A DNA stretch of 64,000 nt from Centroberyx gerrardi (Eukaryota; Chordata; Actinopteri; Beryciformes; Berycidae), in contig NC_136003.1 of assembly GCF_048128805.1 (NCBI RefSeq), positions 21,095,340 through 21,159,339 on the forward strand. Reading direction: 5' to 3'. Made by a program: the position numbers and the translations under genes. Position 1 is the stretch's first letter, and every line of letters begins with the position of its first letter. Below the pieces are notes generated by a model that saw nothing but the letters and a program-made list of their open reading frames with translations, did no database searches and was not told the origin of the DNA. Of this stretch, positions 22,452 to 44,034 are shown piece after piece.

Positions 22452-23881
22452 CTGAAGCAATTGGACGGGGTGAATATTGTCCAATCAGATTTGAGAAAGG
22501 CATGACGAGCGTCCAGTTCATCAAATGGCTGAGCTCGCTGAGGAGACTCACACCCAATGTGGGCGGTGCTCCGGTTGCAATGACACCATTCAATATGGAG
22601 TACAGAAAATAGCCTGATTCACTCTACATTTTCCAATTCTCATTCAGATTTCGAACAAATCTTCCAGTCGTTCAGAAATTATCACCGCTCTCCCTTGAAC
22701 GCCGGGCTCCGGGACTCGCTCACGTATGTTTGACACGTTCTCAAATGTCGTTTGGATGTGAAGCGTTTACTACTATAACAACCGCGTTGACAAGCAGTGA
22801 GCTATGAAACTATTGTAACACTTCGAAACTGATAGTTTACTGTTAAAACGCTACATTGTTTCCATCCAACGCTCTCGACATCCGGAGGTGGATTTGAATA
22901 CAGCGACTACACTTTCCGTTTAATTAACTACAACTTTTGCAGACAGGGTTAGTGGGTGAAAGGTGACATCGCTCCAGTTCGCTGCTGATTGGTAGGTAAG
23001 TTGTTGTCTACATTGCATGCATTTAGATTTTGCGCAGTAGCGATGCTGTGCATACATACACTAACCAAGCACTTTATTAGGAACACCTTACTAATACTGA
23101 GTAGGTATCAGCTTTCAGCTCAATGTCAACCGGCTACTAAGTGCCATCCGCCTCAAGGTTCGCTGTGTTGCATTCTGAGATGCTTTTCTGCTCACCACAG
23201 TTGTAAAGAGGTTATCTGAGTTAGCCTTTCTAACCAGTCTGGCCATTCTCCTCTGACCTCTCTCATCAACAAGGCGTTTCCGTCCGCAGAACTGCAGCTC
23301 ACTGGATGTTTTTTTGTTTTTCGTACCGTTCTGTGTAAACTCTAGAGACTGTTGTGCGTGAAAATCCCAAGAGATCAGCAGTTTCAGAAACACTCAAACC
23401 AGCCCGTCTGGCACCAACAACCATGCCACGGTCAAAGTCACTGAGATCACATTTTTTCCCCATTCTGCTGCTTGATGTGAACATTAACTGAAGCTGCTGA
23501 CCTGTATCTGCATGATCTTAGGCATTGCACTGCTGCCACGTGATTGGCTGAATGGATAATTGCATGAATAAGCAGGTGTACAGGTGTTCCTAATAAAGTG
23601 CTCGGTGAGTGTAATTTGACCTGTTGTGACATCCATTCGTGTATGTTGCCCGGATGTGAGCTGGTAGACTCTGTTCCACATTGCCTGCATGTTGATATGT
23701 GTTTATTGACAACTTTAGCGGTTTTCCGGGTGTTTGATATCATTCTTTTAGATATTACATAAGCTAAGTTACTTGTCTATACAGTATACCATTCAACCTC
23801 CTGAGTTAAACCCATGTTTGTCTCAACTTATGTCCATCCCGTCCCAAAAACCCATCTTTCCCCATTTCCTCCATGACAAGA
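22452..23881. other. Spacer and 5' region of slc27a1
   Basis: No supported coding exon. The region contains a Tc1/mariner-type non-autonomous element at 23057-23613, ending about 270 bases before the slc27a1 start codon. The interval 22650-23000 is less AT-rich and could hold promoter or 5' UTR sequence, but I see no decisive motif. Confidence 0.5.
23057..23613 (-). mobile_element. Non-autonomous Tc1/mariner-type element with transposase N-terminal remnant
   Basis: The left terminus TACACTAACCAAGCACTTTA (continuing TTAGGAACACC) is matched by the inverted right terminus ending GTGCTCGGTGAGTGTA, so the inverted repeats are about 30 bp with TA at the outer edges. Inside, on the minus strand, is a short frame starting at 23463. 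It reads MGKKCDLSDFDRGMVVGA and continues with a helix-turn-helix stretch (SVSETADLLGFSRTTVSRV) typical of Tc1/mariner transposase N-termini. The DDE catalytic region is absent. Total length is 557 bp. Confidence 0.82.
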
Positions 23882-30233: not shown

Positions 30234-33073
30234 TTAGGACTCCACTGATAAGGATATCCTTGTGGGGAGGATTTTCAGTGGATGCTCTTTGCAGGCAGTG
30301 CAGAAGTATGGAAAGGCTCTGGGTGTGATGATATCTGTGAAGGTGTAGAGGGGCGTTCTCTCTCCAGGGTCGAAGAAGGTCACCTTGCCTCGGTCCATGT
30401 CCAGCACCACTCTGACCACTTGTGGCTCCTTGGTCATGGTCAGCGGGGCCCACGGCGCGGTGCAGGCCTTATGCTCTCCGTTGCGAAACCTTATAGTCCA
30501 GAACCCCTCTGCCGGCGTCAGAACGTGCTTGCCCTTCCTGTTGATGGACTCGCTGGCTACACCCACCACCCAGTAGGTGTTGTCCTTCACCTCCACATCC
30601 CAACTGTGGCGCCCAGAGCGAAAGCCCTCAGAGGCCAGCATCTCGGCACTGATGTCGAAGCGTTCTGGATTGTCTGGCAGCTTGAAGATTTGAGTGCAGC
30701 TCTGCACAACTGTCAGATCCTCTGACAGGATGAAGCAGCTAGCTGCTGTGTTGGGATCCAGAACCACAGGAGCTTGGGGAGCAAAAGAGGCACAAGTGAA
30801 TGAGCGTAAGGGAAAGAGCTGACCAATATGAGATGACCAATATTGCTGCTAAAAGAACTCACTGTATTTAATTATACTCTTCATCTTCTCCCACACTTGA
30901 TATCTCAGAGAGCCCAAGTGCTTCGCCACATCAATCAGAGCACCGGAAATCATTTGTGGTTCCAAGGGACTTCGCCAGGTTCTGAAATGATACAGTGGAA
31001 TTAGTTCTCTGAATTGTGTGAATTGTTTCATTAAAGCTATCTTAAAAAATAGGCCTGCTTGGGCCTTAGATGTGACTATAACGCACATACCTCTTTATTG
31101 TGTCCTTGTAGTTCTGAAAACCAAATGGGAGAGAACAACTTTCACCATGTGATGTGCATATGTATGTATAATGACTTTGGTTTAATTCGATTTGTATTTC
31201 CAAGCATCAGTCTTATTTACCTTTAGAAAAGGGATGTCTTGAGATCTCATCTCCTGCTCCGCTATTCTGATGGTGTTGGTGAGAGATGTGACTTCATTGC
31301 TCATCTCCTCAATCTTCTGGTTGATTGTCTGATTCTTCTGATCCTCCTCAGCCTTTAAAGCAGAAAGTCTGGCAGCCTCTTCTTCTTTCAGGAAGTTGTG
31401 AAGGGCTTCAAACCCCTCTTTGATCTGTCTCTCAGTATGCTCAGCTTGGGTCTGGAAAGAGACATGATTGAAAGGTAATCACTCCCCCCTCTCTCTCTAG
31501 TATGTTTAAAGTAGCATTTGGTGCTGATGGAACTGACAGTACCTTGACATGCTCTGCCGTTTGCTCGCAGACCATTTTCGCCTTCTTGTACAGCTGCAAC
31601 TTCTCTTTCAAAGGCAGCAGTGCGCTCTTCAGTTCCTCCTAGAAGGTCAATGACAAGGCATCAACACTTAAACACAGGGTCAATCTGGCAGGCAGTCAAG
31701 CTGTCAGCACAATGTGGGCCTTTCAGCTGCCACACACTCTTCCACGGCAGCATTCCCCTACAAATGCAAAGCTGCACAATACAGCATTGAATTAAAGAGA
31801 CAAATCTATAGAACTGGATAAATGCCCTGGCAACATTAGCAGAGCTGGATTCATGCAGCTGTGAGAATCCAGAGAGGGACACAAGGTGGCGGCCAATAAA
31901 TTCATTTCACATTAGCCTCGATGCGCTCACGGCTTTCCCCGTCTTAAGAAGAAGTCAAGGAGGGCAGGTGGAGAGAGCAGAATGAATAGTGTCACACATT
32001 GGAGAAACCTTATGGGAGTCTAGTTTCAAACTCCTCAGGGGCCCAAGCACTGGCTGACCAAAAATATAAATCTATTATTAGAATGTTAATGAACTCTGCC
32101 AAACACCTTCACAGATAGCCATGTGTTAGAGTATATCAGGTTCAGAGAAGCACAAAGCTGCAATAAAAAACACAATAAGCAGTGCATTTTCTTAAAAGTT
32201 GATAAGTTGTAAATTAAACAAAATAATGTCTGGGTACAATGCTTGTGGAATGATGAATATACTAATATATATATACTAAGTAATCGTAATCTTTAGCATG
32301 CCACTCTATTTTAATTCCAAGGGCTGGCCAGTATTATTGTAGACCCCAGGTAGTATCACCATTTTTTTTTTTTTTTTTTTTTTCATTTTGAAAATCTGGT
32401 CTAAAAAGTCATACATCTAACACAAAAGACCAACTGCAACAATGCAAGATACACTTAAGTTTTCAATAGATATTTTTTTTCCAGTTGCAAATATCAGCAA
32501 GAAAGAGAGGGAAAAGCTTGAATTCCAATGGTAACCAAAGATTTCCAGAGCAGCTGATGTCAGAGGTTGACTCTTGATGAATCATATCAAGGGATACATT
32601 TCAAAGAATCGAAATGCTCTACCAAAGTGAAAAATCACTTAGAGGTGACTTCGACCATGTGTCTTTTTCTTGCCTACCTTACAGTCGTGAGCCCCTTCCC
32701 CAATGGGGTAGAGCCTGTGCCCGATGTGTGCAGCTGCTTTCTCACACACAGCACAGATAGGCTCCAAGTCTTGCAGACAGAAGAGGTTGAGTTTTTCTCC
32801 ATGCTGCGCACAAGCCTCTGGGTCATTCTTGCTCCTGTCCTCCTTGAAGGATTCGCAGGCCTTCTCCAGCACACTGCTCACCACTATGTGCTCCATGGAT
32901 GAACGGCGCCAGCACAGAGGACAACAGCGTGAATCCCCACTGCCTTGTGTGTCCCAACTGTCCTTAAGACAGGCTTTACAGAACCGGTGTTTGCAAGTGA
33001 GCACCACCGGCTGATTGAGAATATTTCCACAAATCGGACAAGAAAGGTTGTCTTCAGCACGTCTGGTGGCCAT
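30234..33073 (-). CDS. Class IV TRIM E3 ubiquitin ligase (RING, B-box, coiled coil, PRY-SPRY)
   Basis: Six exons read on the minus strand: 33073-32678, 31638-31543, 31451-31221, 31113-31091, 30981-30863, 30772-30234. They join in frame to 467 aa. The 96, 231 and 23 nt internal exons are the classic TRIM pattern. The RING has ligands C12, C15, C27, H29, C32, C35, C51 and C54. The B-box 2 (about residues 87-121) has the CxxH, C, D, CxxC, H, H pattern. A coiled coil is encoded by exons 2 and 3. A complete PRY-SPRY follows ([32 protein letters not shown]). Family members ubiquitinate targets, often in innate immunity. The SPRY recognises the target. It resembles the teleost TRIM39 or nuclear factor 7-like group, but no exact orthologue can be named. 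Intron 1 (31639-32677) is non-coding and contains a poly(T) tract near 32.36 kb. Confidence 0.9.
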
Positions 33074-36000
33074 TCTTCTCTAGAGGGCTTTAAGGACAAG
33101 GCAGGATCAGATATGGTTACAACGCCCCTCCCACGCTTCAGGGAGGCTGCCTCATCTAAAGCTCAGTAATGCTTGGAAATAAGTGTCAATAACTCAGCTC
33201 CCACAGGAATATCCCGTGTTGTGCTGTGTTATGCTGAGCATGCACATTGCACATATTCAAATAAATACCGCCCTCAGAATAAAACGCATCAAGATATTGT
33301 ATCTGACTAGACATGAGCCAGCAGTAGCTTGAATAACACAAGGATGATCGCAGAGAAGAGGGTGATGGTGAGATATTTGCACTCAAGATGACCCTCTGAT
33401 ACCAGTTATGCTATGGTCGCCTCTAAGTTATACGAGAAGTGTGTTGAAGCAACATGTCGCAGTGGAATTAGAGGGTTTATTAAAGACTTTCAGGTGAAAC
33501 AATATCCAAAATAACTCAGTGAGGATATAAATAGAGTCCATTTGGGTTGAGGTTGGGTGAGTAAGGAAATACTCTGCTGACCATTGGAAGATTTTTTTTC
33601 ATTTGACACTCTATTCAAAATCCCATATAGTCAAACCCATAGTAGTATAAAAACAGTATACACAGATCTCATATTATTCTAGGTTTCCAGTGGTTCTTGA
33701 CTAACACTGAGATTTCTTTTTTCTCATTTGAGGTTAGCCAGTCTGCACAGTCTGTAGACTTTACTTATTAATTAACAGCTACCTCAAAGCAAGATGTGTG
33801 CTCAGTATCAACACATTAATTTGTTAACTTTAAGAGCAATTAACAGTTAGCTAATCTTGTTTGTACTGTAATCCAATATTTTGTAGTGGGAGTAAGTTCA
33901 CAAGGATCAACGCTGCACCAAAAATAGAGCAAGAGAGAGAGAGGGGGTCGGGAAAGAAAAAGCTCTAGGAATACAACTCAAACATGAGCTAACTGTGCAG
34001 GCCAGTATTGCCTCAGCTGTAGAGTAAACTCTATATACAGGGAGGTTTGTTTTTGTGCCCTCGCCTCTCACACATTCTATGTTAAGGTTCAAAGTCTATT
34101 ACAAATCAGGCAGGACAGTCTTTAGAGCCTATCTGCTCCCAGAACTACTTTCAGCTGTTGAGGACTCATCCACAACAACAGTAGATCAGAATCAGGCTTT
34201 AATGGCCAAGTATGCAACACATACAAGGAATTTGACTTTGGTTAAAAGCCCCAGCTTCCGTTCCTTAACATTCATACTGTGCATACATAACACTCACACC
34301 TACTCCACACATATATACTTTCATACCATGCTAAGACATATACTTACTTTCTTATATAGGCCTATACACATACAACGGCAATATATACACATACAGTATA
34401 ATGACATTAGAGTCATTCATCTGGCATCAGTGCAGGATGTGGGATTATATAAACAGAGTGCAAATGTATGCAGTAGTGCAAAAATAGGTATTATTTATAG
34501 TTATAAACAAATCAAGTGTCCAGATTTATTTGTTCATGACTTCATGTGATGGCGTGTGGAAAGAAACTGTTACGGTGTCTAGTTGTTTTGGCCTTCAGTG
34601 ACCTGAGGCGCCTGCCAGAGGGAAGGAGTTCGAATATGTGATATCCAGGGTGCGAGGGGTCGGCAGTGATTTCCCCTGCTCTCTTCCTGGCTCTGGAGAT
34701 GAGCAGGTCATGGAGGGTGGGCAGGTCAGCTCCTATGATCCTATCCTATGACAGACTCTATGATTGCTGAGTGGCAGGTTGAACTTTTTTAGCTGGTGAA
34801 GTGCATCCTCTGTTGGGCCTTTTTTTTTTTACAATGGAGTCAATGTTGGCTGCCCATTTTCAGGTCCTGGTTAGATAGTGGTTCCCATCACTGTTTTGTC
34901 CAGTATGGGAAGAGGGGGCATTGGTGGGGGGATCCTCATGAAGGCCACCGTCATCTCCATTGTTTCGAACGTGTTGCGCTACAAGTTGTTGTGGCTACAC
35001 CATCGGACCAGCTGTCCAACTTCCCATCTGTAAGCAGTCTCGTCACCATCTTGGATGAGACCAATGACTGCTGTATCGTCTGCGAACTTCAGGAGTAGAT
35101 AGTAGATGTGAAAATGTCCATCATTCTCTCTGAGAGCTATGGATTAATGTGTGTATCTGGAGCAGGCCTGACTATGGTTACACACTCAGTGATCTGGTCA
35201 GAGGTTTTTCCCTATAGATGTTAATATGGAAGCTGGAAGAATTTAGAGATGTTCAATTCAATAGTACTGCAATTCAAAGTTGATACATCCAAATGCATGT
35301 CTACCTTCCCCCCCAAAACCCCTTAAATGATCATTATAAGGGATAACTGTATGTCAAGATGATATACTGAATCAAATAATGTCCTTCAGCTACAGACAGA
35401 CACACTTAGTTGATCATGTCTGTTTCACTGAGATGATAGGTGAGTCCAATAACAATCATTTGGCCATGACTACAATCTATGTAGTTTAGAGAGTTACATT
35501 TGTGTCCTTGCATCACTTTCTGTTTGTTGTTATTTTCTACCACACCTCCTCCTCTCCACCTTGAGCGCTCCCTGACCAAATAAGTGATGGCCTCGTCGAC
35601 ATGCCGAGCAAAGATTTGATTTGTGTCCATGCCATTGTTGGCTCCAGACCAGAGCTACTGATAGTAACAGCCGGCTAAGACGAGTCAACAAGCCCCTCAT
35701 GGACACTAAATCCTGCACACACTTTATGCTGTCAATTTAGCAGTTGCTCTGCATGCAGTCTCTGGGCAGATATAAACCTCCTTTTGATTACATGTTTCTT
35801 GGTTTCTGTATAACTTAAACATTAAAATATCTGACTTTAATGTTTTATATTACACTTATATGATATTCCACACTCCATAATAATAATTTTCCATGATGTA
35901 GTTTGAACTTTTTACAGTTGTTCTATTTGACCTAGTTGAATTAGACTATTAACAGCAGTTTTAATTTGACAAAAGTTTTTTTACAGTATTTCGGTTTTAA

Positions 36001-36565
36001 AATAACTTTCATTGTGAAGTAGTAGCAGTTTTTTGTAATAAAAATTACATCTAAATGATTGAGATTAAAAAGAATGGGGAAGGACAAATGGATTGCTTTG
36101 CTCTGTGTGTGTTTGTATGTGTACACACAACTACATATGTGTGTGCATGGGAGAGTGTATGTGCATGTATGCACACACACCCTCTATGCACACGCACAAT
36201 GAGGAGATGGTAACAGCCATATTACAACATAGCCTAAGGAGCCCTTGAGGGAGAGCAGGCAGTCTCTGTGAAAGTGAAAGTTTTCCGCAGAATATCTTTA
36301 CACATTTTCCATTTCAAAATGCTGGTTTTTCCAGATCTCATTTTCAGTGTTCAACGTTATGTATGCTCATAGTGGCTGGGCAACATGTCAATTACGCCTT
36401 AACACTGCAGCTGAAGATCATTCTTCACAACAAAAAATAAAAAGATAGAAAATGGCAGTTGGTCTACAACAACATAAAATCTGTCCTCATCTGTATCTGG
36501 ATAGAGCAAGTTTTTTCCATACTTTAAGTGTAATTCCTAAACTTTAATCCCCACACTAAGCTTAC
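33074..36565. other. Region between the two TRIM RING/B-box exons
   Basis: I looked on the minus strand for coiled-coil, 23-nt or SPRY exons belonging to the upstream RING/B-box exon and found none. The main content is a LINE fragment at 34184-35100. The remainder is AT-rich unique sequence with short CA/TG stretches near 36.1 kb. Confidence 0.6.
34184..35100 (-). mobile_element. Truncated non-LTR retrotransposon (LINE) with reverse-transcriptase remnant
   Basis: On the minus strand the right part encodes LKFADDTAVIGLIQDGDETA (the FADD box of reverse transcriptase, 35051-35090 region) and continues with a WC motif and NNL, as in the L2/CR1-like LINEs of fish. In-frame stops follow. The left part is the 3' untranslated tail ending near TTTAATGGCCAAGTATGC, shared in diverged form with 1318-1440. 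It is 5'-truncated and decayed. The exact clade is uncertain. Confidence 0.72.
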
Positions 36566-36913
36566 CTTACAATCTTCGAATGCCTCCTTTATCAAATACA
36601 CTCTGTGATTCTTATGCAGGCCTGACTTGCGGCACAGAGAGCACACGGGCTCCAAATCCACTACGCAGAACAGAGACAGTTTCTCTCCGTGGTCTTCACA
36701 TGTTTTCTGTGGAGGTCCATGGTTCTCTTCAAAGCAGAGAGGACACTCTCTAGTACCATGTTGTACCCAGAACGCCTCTAAACAAGAGCTGCAGAAGCTG
36801 CAGCCACAGTAGATGCAGCTGAGCACCAGTGGAACCAGGAAGATTTCCCCACACACCGCGCAGGAGGACTCGTCCACACCCTTACATGAGTTGTCCTCCA
36901 CATCGTCCTCCAT
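36566..36913 (-). CDS. Second TRIM RING/B-box first exon (alternative first exon or partial duplicate)
   Basis: One exon of 116 codons begins MEDDVEDNSCKG and ends in EDCK at a consensus donor (AAG then GTAAG). This is the same phase and position as the first exon of the TRIM gene at 32678. It encodes a RING-like module followed by a B-box 2 with all usual ligands (CEDHGEKLSLFC, then CSLCRKSGLHKNH). The RING is odd. The usual CxH is CGC, so the His ligand is replaced by Cys38, and the loop between the second and third ligands is about three residues longer. No coiled-coil or SPRY exons follow before the neighbouring TRIM gene. Either it splices over about 4.9 kb into that gene's exon 2 as an alternative first exon, or it is the surviving head of a broken tandem duplicate. 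Confidence 0.65.
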
Positions 36914-37960
36914 CTGTGAAAGCTAATGCAAGACTGAAGGGTCTCTGCCAGGCAGCAAGATCTATGTCCCCTATGTGTGTACACTATGTACCATGGGTGT
37001 GCAACCACTTATAGTCATGGGGTCGGGGTCGGGGGGGTCTGTAAGGCACAACTCAGCCCAGCTCCTCTGGTTGCACCATAAATCAACATACACTTTAAAA
37101 GTACACTGACACAGGTTTTAAGTTCAAAGCATGCAAATGAAAAATTGGAGAGGGCACAGAAATGTTCAGAAAGTCATAATTTCTCCTCAGTGGAGTATGG
37201 TGGAAAGAATGAGTATTTTGTTGAGCTACAATAATGTTGGGCAAGTAGTTCTGCAGCACTCAATTCACTGATATAAAGGCTTGTCATATTATCAAATTAT
37301 TCATATGTTGAAGATTGAGTTAAAATTCAGTTTCTTACTGTATAACCTTAAATACAAAATACACACAGTTTTAAACACTTTTACTATTGTAAATGGCATT
37401 TGGTAGAATCCCTAAAATGTTGTCCAAAACTCAGTGAGCTGAAAAAGTATTTGACATTTTGGCTCTGCACTCTTATCTCTCTGGATTTCAAATGATGAAG
37501 ACTTTGAGATTAAAGGACAATTACTTTTCATTTACGGGTATTTTCTTCATTATCAGTACAATTAAAGATCTACAAAAAAAGACTACACAAAGATTATATT
37601 CGCAATTTTTTCTATTCATTAAAAATATCATATAACGTCATATTCCTGATAACAAAACATTACCAGCACTGTAGACGATGTTACTGTTCATTCACTACAA
37701 TAAGGCGAACTGTCTGTACTTCAACCTCATGGTCATTGTATAAATCTAAAGGCAAAGTTAATAGAGTGCATTAACACAATGTGAAAAACTATCAGTGACT
37801 TAATAGACTACATTTGGAGCTCAGTGTATAATTAGCCTAATCAGAGTGATTAATCAAGAGCAAAACCTTGACTAGACCATTTTAAAAGGCTGTAGGCAAT
37901 GTAGTGTGTAACGTAATGAGACAGGGAAACACTTGTCATTGGTTGCTACCCCCCCCCCCC

Positions 37961-38007
<47 letters not shown>

Positions 38008-39069
38008 TTCTCCGACATTTCTATTAGCACATTTTGTTTGTTATATGAACACTGGAACAATAGGTTTTTAATCACATGGTCCACTTTATTGATTTTTACA
38101 CAGGAATGACAAAAGTGCTAGTCTTTCTTCAAAATGCAAGACAAACAGATATAGTATTAAAAGAAGAAAGGGGGAATACATATCAGTTGAGAAATGACCT
38201 AAGAAATAAGAAATGTAATCAAAAGCTGGAGGTGGATGAGGTGGAGTTTCCGACCAACAAGGCTTTAAATAAAAACAGCAAAGAAGAATGGCAAGAGGTG
38301 TAACAACATACCCAGAATTTATGCCAAGAGTTCAGCCATCTACGCGTTCCAGAGTTGACAATCTCAGTTAAGCTACGTAAATACTCCACATATTTCTTTT
38401 GTAGCTGAAACGAGATTAAGACAACCCTGAATGTAAACTCTCTTCTTATCGAGTACACCATTACAAAATAGTTCACATGGAAATTAAATGGCAGCAGTAG
38501 TGTGTGCTATATATAACATTGAGAGGCATGTGTTTGACTTGAAGCGTTGTGAAGATTTAATTTAGCGGAAAACATCCCAGGTAGTGACGGGGCATAATGG
38601 AAATTTAGGATGTGGCCGTATTGTCACCACCAACAATCATGTTGTATGAACTTTTATGTGTATCCTCCAAATCCTCACAGAAAGTGGTAGCTGTACTCAT
38701 TTGTCTGTATATAGTCTACAGTGTGTTAAAGTATCTGTTTTACAGTTCCTTTCAAAGTATTATTTGTATCTCTCCATCACATAACACTCCTTAATATCGG
38801 TCAGTAAATTCATAAAAGATATCACTTGTTTCTTGACTATGTATAACCAGTGCTTCTCTTCTTCCAGTGATAACCAGTTTTCAACATACTAATTTAATAC
38901 TTTTTGGCTTCAATAGCATCTTGACAATCTTTTCTTTCTCACAATTTATTTCTTATACATATACTGTATATATATATAATTTCTCTCTTTCTCATCATTA
39001 ACCACCCTTCTTTCATGCTCCTCCCCCTGTCCTCAAGGGTCAGAGGTCACGATGTCAGGCACAATGACA
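36914..39069. other. Spacer and probable vac14 3' UTR
   Basis: No supported coding exon. A compound C/CA microsatellite sits at 37949-38006. On the minus strand AATAAA occurs at 38945-38950 and again at 38085-38090, so the vac14 3' UTR could be about 0.1 or 1.0 kb long. Confidence 0.5.
37949..38006. repeat. Compound poly(C)/(CA)n microsatellite
   Basis: About 15 C residues run directly into about 22 CA units, in the spacer downstream of vac14. Confidence 0.96.
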
Positions 39070-41439
39070 TCACATCAGCTTCCTGTCAGGGTGGTCGGTG
39101 GCGCGTCCGGAGCGCTGGTGTCGGACTTCCAGGTGCTTGCTCTGGACGCGGTCGAAGTGCTGGAGCAGCTCGCTGTAGTCCATTTGGGCGTGAGAGGCAC
39201 GTTTGGAGGCGGCTTGCTGTTTGGACTCCATGTACTTGGATTCATCCACAGTCCTCATGAGTTCCGGGTTGGGGACGCAGCGCAGGCGGTGGGAGAGCAG
39301 CTGGAAGGCCTGGCTCTGTGGCAGCAGCATCAGCAGGCCGTACAGCGCCTTGATCAGGTAGGGGTTGTTCTCCACGTCTAGGAGCTGCAGACGCAGGTAG
39401 GTGAAGATGGGGCTCTCTATGAGCTGCACCAGCTTATCTACCTCCATCAGGAAGTCTACAGTCACTTCCAGATCTCCAAACTTCTGGATGAGATCATAGG
39501 CGTGTCTGTAGTTCTGGGTGAGGAAGCAGAGCGATACGGTGGCCACGGGGTTGTGGCACCAGGAACGATACAGGCAGCAAAACAAAGCGCAGCTCTCCTG
39601 TGTGCGCAGGTCTTTGAGCTGGTTGCGCAGCTGGAAGAGCTCAGCAGAGGTGAGCAGAATGGTGTTGAGCGTCTGGACCATGGTGGAGGCAAACTTCAGA
39701 TCCTCCTCCTTCAGCAAGATGTCAGCCATGGAGTGGAAGATGTTCTCCGCATGAAGCAACAGACACAACTGCCGGATGATGAAAGCCCCTCTATTCTCCA
39801 GAAGCTTCCTCTCCAGACTGAAGCGTTTCAGCAGGTTGATCATGAACTTGTAGAAGTAGGAGTTCATGCTGGGAGTGGAGGGGGACGACTCGGCTGCCTT
39901 GGAGCCCGCGCTGGGCTGCTGCCCCGGCTTGGCCCCCTCCGGGACCTTGAGCACCAGCTTGTTGTCGGTGTTGTCGCAGGAGCCTGCGAGGTCTGTTTGG
40001 CCAGCGGGGGACGACGCTATCTCAGCCAGCACTTCCAGATCCTTCAGTATTACCTCGTCAGACTCGTCGGACAGCGTCTTCAGCAGCATGGGAAACAGGC
40101 TGTCGGTGTGGCGGAACATCTTGCGTGGCGTCTTGATGTAGAGGTGGTAGAGCCATTTGAGCACAGCGATGCGGGTCATCATGCCAGTGGAGGAGTCATG
40201 GAGGTGGCGGTCCAGCACCTGAACGATGCCGTCCAGGTCCAGAGTTACCTGGGGCCTGTCAGCAGTCGCTGGGGTAAAGAAGCTGATATTGCTGAAACCA
40301 ACAGATTCTTGTGACGCGTTCAGCATGTCGTTGCCGTCTGCCTCCGTCTTTGGCAGGCCGTCTTCCCTGGACGGTGATCCTGTGCCGCCTCCTTTCTCCT
40401 CCTCCTCCTCATCGTCCTCGGGGGTGACCAGCTTCATCAGACTGTGGTTACAGGCACTGGCTGCTTCTTTGGTGCTCTTTTTTCGGTCATCGTAGGAGAG
40501 GCAAGGCAGCACTGCGGTGAGGATGCCAGAGGAGTAGGGGAGCACCACCCTGCCTGCGAGCTGGATGAACTCTCTCATCCAGGTCATAGCTGTCAGCTGG
40601 ATCAGGTCATTAGTGAGTTTGGTCTCATCTGCGACCTGGCAGTGGATGACCAGGATGTTGGCCATCTCAGCAAACTTCACGCTGGAGGGCGTCTTCTTGA
40701 TCTCCTTCAGAAACTCTCCCAGCACCACCTCGCACGTCCTGCGGATCTCTTTGCTGTTGTCTCCCAGGATCTGGAAGAGTCCGTCCAGGATCTCAGGGAG
40801 GTAGTCCAGCAGGTTGATGTCTGGCACCGACTCCAGAACCAGGATCCAGGAAATGATGAACTGCCGAGCGTACTGATTGTTGGAGTAGATTCTCTCTCTC
40901 AGCAGGGGGACAAACGCCACCAGGTCAAACTTGTTACTTTCAGTCACTATATCCTTCAGCAGTCTGTCCAGGAGCTCAGATCCACTTTTCACATTAGGGT
41001 CTGGATCTGCCGCAAGCTTGCTGAGACCGTCAAAGAGCAGGTTGAAGTGGGGCAGCACAGCTCCCCGGGCCACCTTGACTATGTTGTACAGGGCCTCGCA
41101 GGCGTAGTAGCGCAGCCGGCTGTCAGAGTCATTGAAGCACGTGAGCACAGGCTCGATCAGCTCCTTCAGATACAGACCCGAGTCCTTCCCGAGGGCAATG
41201 GAGCAAGCTGCCAGTCCGATGAGACCTCCCTTGCGGCTGTGGGGGTGCTGGGACAGCGCAAACTCCGAAGCCAGGATCTGGATAACATGCCTAATCTGAG
41301 TGGAGTTGTTCTGGGCCACAAACTCCCGCACCAGTTTCTCAATTTCTAGGGCAGCGACTTTCCTCTTCTCGTACAGTTTATCATTTAGCGCCCTAACGAT
41401 GTTGGGTGTCAAAGGCGAGAAGTCCTTCTCCGTGTTCAT
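39070..41439 (-). CDS. vac14: VAC14, scaffold of the PIKfyve-FIG4 complex, encoded by a single exon
   Basis: One uninterrupted frame encodes 789 aa (human VAC14 is 782). The protein is made of HEAT-like repeats. It multimerises and holds the lipid kinase PIKfyve and the phosphatase FIG4 together on endosomes and lysosomes, controlling PI(3,5)P2. The N-terminus [20 protein letters not shown] and blocks such as [34 protein letters not shown] and [20 protein letters not shown] match vertebrate VAC14 almost residue for residue. The C-terminus keeps the [20 protein letters not shown] segment. A variable acidic and serine-rich linker lies around residues 345-390. Vertebrate VAC14 normally has many introns, but here none is seen. 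The frame has no damage, so it is probably expressed. A zinc-finger gene starts 325 bp away on the other strand. Confidence 0.95.
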
Positions 41440-41764
41440 CTTCGAAGTTGTGGTCGAACCGGAGTCCGTCTATTGAAATCTACGTCGATACGGCGGAGAA
41501 GACGCTGCAACATTTACCGTTTATTAGAAGAAGATCTCGGTTTCATGAGCGAAAGCAGAAATGCTTTTATAATACAACGCAGCTGACCGGTTACGTCCGC
41601 CGGAAGGTACGTCACGGTTGTTACATTTATTTGGGTCCCCCTCTGCTCGAAGAAAAATTAGCCGCACTACATAATTGGCTACCTAAAATCCTTGTTTATG
41701 GTTTAAAAAAAAAACGCGAATTAGCTTTCTTTAGCTAGTGAAGTGAGTCGCAGTTGCAGCAGCG
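41440..41764. promoter_or_regulatory. Candidate bidirectional promoter between vac14 and zinc-finger gene A
   Basis: The two start codons are 325 bp apart and face away from each other. The interval contains an ETS-type CCGGAAGG (41600-41607) next to a CRE-like TACGTCAC (41608-41615), plus several CpG dinucleotides. No TATA box is evident. ETS and CRE pairs are typical of housekeeping bidirectional promoters. That this promoter serves both genes is an inference. Confidence 0.55.
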
Positions 41765-44034
41765 ATGTCAAACAGCCTCTCTTTCCACACACAGCTCTCC
41801 TGCATCATGGAGACGATGGTTAGGTCTGCACTGACTCAAGTGTGCAGGCTGGTGGATGAAGACTCGGCTGGGCTCCGGGCGGAATTATCCCGGCTCCTGG
41901 TTGCTAATGCAGCCCTGACAGAAAAACTGAACAGTTTGCAGTGCGAGTTGACGGTCGTGAGAAGCGACGGCCCCAAGCTGTCTAAAAGTTCTCGTACAGT
42001 AGGTGTACAAACTACTGGAGGGTCCAGAGACAGGGATGGACACGGTATCTACTTAGTTTTGTTACACGGTAACATTAGTTCATAACAGTAGCAGTCAACT
42101 TGGCTTCTGTTTTTAATGGTATGATCTAACAGTCAGCTCATCTGACTTTTCCTCAGTAACTGGGCCTCCGACCATTGAAGGAATCTTTGGAAAGGATTGG
42201 TGTATGGATTTGTGGAACGACAGCAACCCATATAGTCTGGAAACAGTCAGATACTCAACACAGAGCTCAGATAAGGTGAGGGGGAACCTGACCTAGACTT
42301 GGGTATTAAATATTTGATATCATTATGGACCTCAGAACTAATGAAGTGTGTTTACATGCACCAGCATTCCGGATAACAGCTCACATCCTGGTTTAAGTAT
42401 GAGGACAAGCTGTTTGAAGACCACAAAAAACAACAGTACAATAACAAGAATACATGTCTCAGTATCCAAAATCACTTTTGCTTTATCCAAATTCTCATAT
42501 TTGGAAAGAACACATCTGGGGTGTTGCACACAGGGCATGATTTTACAATCACAATCACACCTATGGAAAAGTATTAATATTCTCAATATTACAATGGAAG
42601 CTGTGTTAATGCACACCATGAAAAGCAACAGTACATGGGGAAAGGGAGTGTATACATGGCCCGGTATCCTGACTAACACCGGTATGTCCCAGGCAACTAA
42701 TTTGGATTTCACATTATCAAGAGAACATCCATGTTGCTGTAAATGAGCCAACTCATATATTATAAATTGTATGACGTATTTTGTATCACCTAAAAAGCTA
42801 ATAAAAAGACTGAACAGACATTTCAAACATTGAATACTGGAGAATCCTAAATAATGCGATATTGGTATGCATGAAAACATACTCATTGCTGTCAGTGTTT
42901 GATAAGAGTTTTACATTCTGTTTTCTCTAATTTGCAGTCAGTGGTGCCGCTCTCTGATCAAATCGCTGTAACCGAAATCAAAGAAGAAGATTATGAGGAG
43001 GAACTTGCGAGCACCTGCCGACAGGAAACACTAAACACAGAAGGTAAAGAGAACGAAGAGGCATTGACATGAGGTAGTGCTGTACTCCCACCAGCTTCAG
43101 ATGCTATCTCAGTGTTTGTTTCCTGTATCTTTTTGCAATAGAACATGAAGAATGCCTGGCTCAGGAAGCAGAAGAGCTGTCCATTGAGTTCTCAGCTGAC
43201 GACAGCAGGCTGTCATTTGACCAGGAGGAAGAACAGGTTTTGTCTGCAGGTGGCCTCGGAGAACCTTCCATGCAGCTGATATCCAGCAACGATGCAGAGG
43301 AGGTGTACAGTACACACATCATTCCAATCGATGAGGAGGAGGAGGATGAGGAGGAGGAGGAGGATGAGGATGAGGATGAGGATGATGATGGTGTACAATT
43401 CATTCAAGAAAGTCAAAAGGAACCATCGATGACCGCTGCAGATGAACCCAGCCAAAACGAACAGCAAACACTACCAGCAGACTCTGAAAACAACACTGCT
43501 CCTGACAGAGACACATGTGACAGCTTTAATATATTTCATTTACAAACCACCAGCGGCACAAAGAAAGACAAATTCACTTGTGAAATATGTAGCAGGACGT
43601 TCTTCCACAAGGGCACGCTAACACACCACATGAAAACACACAAATCAAACTTCTGCCAAATTTGTAAGCAGCATCTCCCTCACAAGAGCAAATTCAAAAC
43701 GCACACCTGCGTGCCTCCGGTTGCCTCTCAGAGAATCAGAAACTCGTGCGAGTTGTGCGGGAAGACCTTTACAAATCCATCTGCTCTGAGGATACACTAC
43801 CTTGTCCACACCGGAGAGAAACCCCACAGGTGCACATTATGCGGGAAAAGGTTCACCCAGAAAGGCAATCTGAAATGTCACCTCCGCATCCACACTGGCG
43901 AGAGACCGTTCCACTGTGGTAAATGTGGAAAGACCTTTACGCAAAAGGTGAACCTCAATCACCATTTAATGGCTCACAGAAACAGGGAGGTGGAGGGGGA
44001 AACGCCCAGAGATAGAAAACAAATTAAACATTGA
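41765..44034 (+). CDS. C2H2 zinc-finger protein A (acidic linker, four to five fingers)
   Basis: Four exons, 41765-42044, 42157-42275, 42938-43043 and 43142-44034, join in frame to 465 aa. Residues 1-65 form an amphipathic, probably coiled-coil N-terminal module starting MSNSLSFHTQLSCIMETMV. Exon 2 has IEGIFGKDWCMDLW, shared with gene B, and exon 3 an IKEED motif typical of fish zinc-finger genes. Exon 4 has a Glu/Asp-rich run (43331-43390), then the fingers. Finger 1 is FTCEICSRTFFHKGTLTHHM. The second is an aberrant C2HC unit (CQICKQHLPHKSKFKTHTC). Three canonical fingers follow with TGEKPH and TGERPF linkers. It is probably a nuclear DNA-binding regulator with unknown targets. Confidence 0.88.
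43331..43390 (+). repeat. GAG/GAT trinucleotide coding repeat
   Basis: About 20 consecutive GAG or GAT codons in zinc-finger gene A encode an acidic Glu/Asp stretch. The run is a likely site of length variation. Confidence 0.9.

Follow-up and report, generated by a model that had tools for sequence, protein, structure and literature searches.

The results of this work suggest that, within the genome of Centroberyx gerrardi, vac14 is very probably a functional retrogene that took the place of its parent (i.e., an orphan retrogene, a case of retrogene replacement). What we observe is an intact frame with complete domains, matched only once in the assembly and situated away from the ancestral neighbours of the gene; retroposition predicts just this combination, a coding sequence free of all introns at a new location. 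An earlier note on this DNA had put forward the reading of a parent-replacing retrogene, and within this genome it is supported by the single intronless match and by the non-ancestral site.

The vac14 coding sequence is a single uninterrupted exon on the minus strand, at 39070..41439 of the window (i.e., the whole 64-kb stretch of DNA that was analysed, C7:21095340-21159339), and it consists of 789 codons followed by TGA, the frame being 799 amino acids long when measured from stop to stop. Judging from the base composition of this frame alone, 789 codons would be free of stops by chance with a probability of about 3e-13. The protein belongs to the VAC14 family, with both the Fab1-binding HEAT region and the C-terminal Fig4-binding region present according to Pfam. 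The first (PF12755, Vac14_Fab1_bd; profile 2-97 of 97, E 8.3e-46) lies at 40951..41238 on the minus strand, as computed from residues 67-162 of the query, which was the vac14 protein minus its start codon, and the second (PF11916, Vac14_Fig4_bd; profile 1-179 of 179, E 3.6e-80) at 39274..39810 on the same strand, as obtained by subtracting the window offset of 21095339 from its position in the genome profile search (C7:21134613-21135149). Since both domains are matched nearly end to end, neither contains a read-through intron, and a consensus scan of the frame found no strict splice-donor/acceptor consensus. The continuous 789-codon frame that had been claimed beforehand is thus borne out at its stated coordinates. 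VAC14 of vertebrates has many exons and acts, in the lipid machinery of endosomes and lysosomes, as the scaffold holding PIKFYVE and FIG4; it is essential in mammals, where endolysosome function and neuron survival need it. A retrogene is expected to have its coding sequence without introns, and this is how the continuous frame compares with a many-exon parent.

Searches with the vac14 protein gave no match in the PDB sequences and no NCBIfam family, and, as one would expect of a gene from a fish, no relative was confirmed among 590 and 593 pattern stretches from collections of bacterial/archaeal and of viral contigs. Two open frames run opposite to vac14 on the plus strand (39382-40314 and 40378-41349, of 310 and 323 amino acids); they were set aside as genes, being probably shadows of a GC-rich coding strand with high GC3. 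The GC3 itself, 0.767, was rejected as a mark of a retrogene, given that 10 neighbouring exon pieces span 0.513-0.784.

The genes surrounding vac14 tell where the copy now resides. The plus strand upstream carries an adhesion-GPCR-like gene (with EGF and 7tm_2 domains by Pfam), a prostaglandin-receptor gene that comes nearest to EP1, and an acyl-CoA-synthetase-like gene (AMP-binding by Pfam) recognised by eye as SLC27A1. Downstream lie a PGLS-like piece (6-phosphogluconolactonase), which is over the Pfam cut-off and has a partial match under that of NCBIfam, and, beyond it, a fragment of the procollagen galactosyltransferase 1 gene. Human SLC27A1, PGLS and COLGALT1 are neighbours on 19p13.11, which places vac14 inside a block that lacks it in human, the 19p13-like block of the earlier note. 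The space between the SLC27A1-like and PGLS-like genes (30234-52444) holds three TRIM-type pieces, vac14 and several C2H2 zinc-finger genes, and seems, by eye and from the Pfam matches, to be an insertion-prone island. The TRIM-type pieces, all on the minus strand and recognised by Pfam, are a PRY/SPRY at 30234-30848 and RING plus B-box at 32639-33079 and 36524-36922, and probably make up two genes. Among the zinc-finger genes beyond vac14, Pfam supports the one at 43078-44034 and the others were recognised by eye. Two of the 10 window pieces scanned by Pfam matched no family, the Rfam and tRNA scans of the window gave nothing, and open frames at 23299-23776 on the minus strand, upstream of the SLC27A1-like gene, resemble by eye a fragment of a Tc1/mariner-type transposase.

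This is not the company that VAC14 kept ancestrally. In human its other neighbour is HYDIN, and the COG4/IL34/HYDIN neighbourhood is that of 16q22. According to a published gene-order comparison that excluded teleosts, human IL34 is flanked by FUK, COG4 and SF3B3 in one direction and by MTSS1L and VAC14 in the opposite one, the ghost shark has FUK, COG4, SF3B3, MTSS1L and VAC14 together in one region, and the coelacanth has MTSS1L and VAC14 elsewhere, away from IL34 and COG4, so that the neighbourhood of VAC14 is not fixed in every lineage (PMC7717901). What this comparison gives of the parent site in outgroups is the position of the gene in human and ghost shark. Profile searches of the C. 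gerrardi assembly placed COG4 at C1:17.32 Mb, IL34 at C4:25.16 Mb and Hydin at C4:26.53 Mb, and vac14, on C7, is on neither of these contigs; IMD-domain genes occur on C4 and C1 among other contigs, and one is also on C7. A retrogene should occupy a site different from that of its parent, and this difference is seen here by way of the ancestral neighbours (COG4, IL34 and Hydin), the parent itself being unseen. COG4 is accompanied, within the surrounding 200 kb, by a G(o) alpha exon, TRADD, mitochondrial aspartate aminotransferase and genes of the FtsJ methyltransferase, THAP and GFO/IDH/MocA types, a set that fits human 16q. More broadly, the block at C1:17.24-17.44 Mb resembles human 16q in CTCF, TRADD, GNAO1, COG4, GFOD2, THAP11, CMTR2 and GOT2, where matches back up TRADD, G(o) alpha, GOT2 and COG4, and the others were recognised by a general domain or by eye.

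Retroposition may leave marks at the insertion site, and the earlier note had reported neither a flanking poly(A) tail nor a target-site duplication. A run scan and a test of shared 9-mers against background agree with it: there is no poly(A) run of at least 8 on the expected side of vac14, the sole A/T run of at least 8 in 36901-42500 consisting of A at 41705, which is 5′ of the gene and so in the wrong place for a tail, and there is no target-site duplication above background, as the flanks share one 9-mer against a mean of 2.8 for random pairs of regions. Both marks are expected to decay with age; here they are either gone or never existed. The case for retroposition rests on the full absence of coding introns and on the relocation, and it implies an old event. 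The distal vac14 AATAAA signal is closely followed by a pure CA repeat of 21.5 copies (37963-38005), conceivably a tail that was converted or else a GU-rich downstream element. The lack of both marks would also fit another history, in which vac14 moved as ordinary intron-bearing DNA and cDNA-mediated gene conversion later removed all its coding introns in place, and a precedent for the move exists in the coelacanth, where the gene is also relocated (PMC7717901). This history, however, calls for two rare events, the second of which would have had to remove every coding intron up to both ends, where a single retroposition accounts for the new site and the intron loss alike; we consider it improbable, if the best of the alternatives.

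Whether the copy replaced its parent depends on what else the genome holds. The search covered one C. gerrardi assembly, whose completeness is not stated and which comprises 278 contigs with 778,876,752 bases. The VAC14 protein has 1 match in it (E up to 0.001), which is the window's own copy at C7:21.13 Mb, and the PF11916 profile (E up to 10) exceeds its cut-off of 25 bits in 1 place, again vac14 on C7, with 273 bits. The 2 matches of this profile under the cut-off (19.2 bits on C6 and 16.5 bits on C18) are, from those scores, taken as chance. The same kind of profile search recovers multi-exon genes exon by exon, with 4 matches for COG4 and 3 for IL34, as well as 31 for the IMD domain in ten places and 1 for Hydin_ADK, which runs over two stops; these positive controls are all profile searches, whereas the single-match result of vac14 also includes a protein query. 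The earlier note had asked whether this genome also has a vac14 with introns; none was found, under conditions in which multi-exon genes are detected. Closer inspection gave the same picture: no second copy within the 64-kb window (best tblastn E 3.9), no remnant better than E 2.0 at the protein level in the 200 kb around COG4 (5,000 of the 200,000 bases being N), and none better than E 3.7 near IL34 (10 loci, seven of them at IL34). The IL34/IMD loci comprised 40 kb beside IL34 and six short loci (three IL34 exons and three IMD exons), with 2,500 bases of N, within the 10,000 of one IL34 locus. With no parental relic found, the RNA route rests on the absence of introns and the new site.

An orphan retrogene is one whose intron-bearing parent is gone, and this is the state of the present assembly, some stretches of N being unread. 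Those stretches, which fall in both the COG4 and IL34 regions fetched, and the unstated completeness of the assembly leave some room for a functional retrogene alongside an intron-bearing parent that is missing from the assembly or hidden in what was unread, in which case nothing has been replaced. Nevertheless, the contigs concerned are long (38.96 Mb for C1 and 37.27 Mb for C4), COG4, IL34 and Hydin were each found in one place, and a many-exon gene would have to be absent whole, all of which makes such a hidden parent a slim prospect and leaves replacement of the parent as the reading we prefer.

How the copy would be driven is suggested by its 5′ flank. Its ATG (41439) and that of a C2H2 zinc-finger gene (41765) are divergent and 325 bases apart. 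The zinc-finger gene extends over 41765..44034 on the plus strand, its last exon lying within 43078-44034 (Pfam zf-C2H2); the frame from 41765 and the piece at 43078-44034 were joined as one gene by eye. The head-to-head gap from ATG to ATG (41440..41764, strand unassigned) is, by its CpG ratio, a candidate shared two-way promoter: the observed/expected CpG of 1.58 in 41440-41766 is the highest of the window: when 3184 windows of 327 bases are compared, a single one reaches it, at 41441 and all but identical with it, and the seven such windows with at least 25 CpGs all overlap 41440-41766. That the highest ratio falls in the head-to-head gap suggests a promoter common to vac14 and the zinc-finger gene, and the CpG-rich gap points to an unmethylated germline promoter, possibly two-way, a function that we infer from its composition. 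Motifs in the gap include an ETS site and, oriented with vac14, a TATA-like and a CCAAT element, all single matches and, where tested, not significant; an ETS-CRE-like motif at 41600, with 2 mismatches, was dropped as evidence, since one or more matches turn up in 26 of 100 shuffles when up to 3 mismatches are allowed. A scan of the vac14 5′ flank for bacterial promoters and terminators, with models unsuited to a vertebrate, gave nothing. At the other end, a candidate 3′ untranslated region occupies 38085..39069 on the minus strand, with AATAAA signals found by motif scan at 38950 and 38090 (120 and 980 bases past the stop). That vac14 could be a recent, unselected processed copy, intact by chance, is scarcely credible, because its 789 codons are intact although the copy is probably not recent (no poly(A) tail or duplication remains), because it is the only copy found of a gene that is essential in mammals, and because its 5′ flank is CpG-rich.

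If vac14 is indeed a parent-replacing retrogene, its history might be pictured as follows, where we infer the RNA route, the order of the events, the promoter, the expression of the copy and its being needed. A spliced vac14 mRNA would have been reverse-transcribed and its cDNA inserted on the ancestor of C7, between the SLC27A1-like and PGLS-like genes, where the copy would have come to lie head-to-head with the zinc-finger gene and may now be driven by the unmethylated, CpG-rich, two-way promoter in the gap. The many-exon parent, in the COG4/IL34/HYDIN neighbourhood (human 16q22), would have been lost later, so that the one-exon gene would make all the VAC14 of the cell. One might extend this to a whole clade within the ray-finned fishes, which might run PIKFYVE-VAC14-FIG4 on a retrogene that captured the CpG-rich promoter of a zinc-finger gene, the many-exon gene of this indispensable scaffold having been lost afterwards; we offer this tentatively, as an idea with a little less in its favour than against it.

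Were the reading true for C. gerrardi, vac14 would show, as a natural experiment, whether an endolysosomal scaffold gene depends on introns and on its native promoter; vac14 models in such fishes would be without splicing control, and the gene would be put in the wrong place when gene orders are compared. Were the clade-wide reading also true, splicing control within the vac14 coding sequence would be gone and its expression would be tied to a fast-evolving neighbour.

Retrogene replacement is a known kind of event, and none of the open full texts searched presents vac14 as a retrogene, an intronless gene or a retrocopy; annotation databases may well show a one-exon vac14. The gene is unnamed in the main text of a sea bass single-exon study and of a zebrafish retrogene study, unnamed in the text of the VGP phase I preprint, which lists ray-finned fishes with those lineages where retrocopies under selection make up the largest share (PMC13320880), and unmentioned in a review of orphan retrogenes (PMC5408686). 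That review counts, from another study, 25 human orphan retrogenes (e.g., CHMP1B), in which, as proposed here, a retrocopy keeps the function once the parent is lost or broken; they differ in being human, whereas vac14 is a fish case. Ray-finned fishes have an intronless rhodopsin and Opn4, which arose by retroduplication and, like vac14, are intronless genes at a new site. Their description reports that teleost opsin parents survive with changed expression, in contrast to the vac14 parent, which was not found here, and that sterlet and paddlefish have lost the intron-bearing rhodopsin (PMC10339062). The closest known case is SYCP1 of amphioxus, where a single-exon copy supplanted a parent with many exons and acquired a two-way promoter, in what the paper describes as a rare kind of replacement (PMC5803294). 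It shares with vac14 the single coding exon, the new site, the loss of the many-exon parent and the two-way promoter (a candidate one in vac14), but it is a meiosis gene, with a newly evolved spliced 5′ UTR and measured expression (same paper), whereas vac14 is a fish gene for a scaffold of general endolysosomal use.
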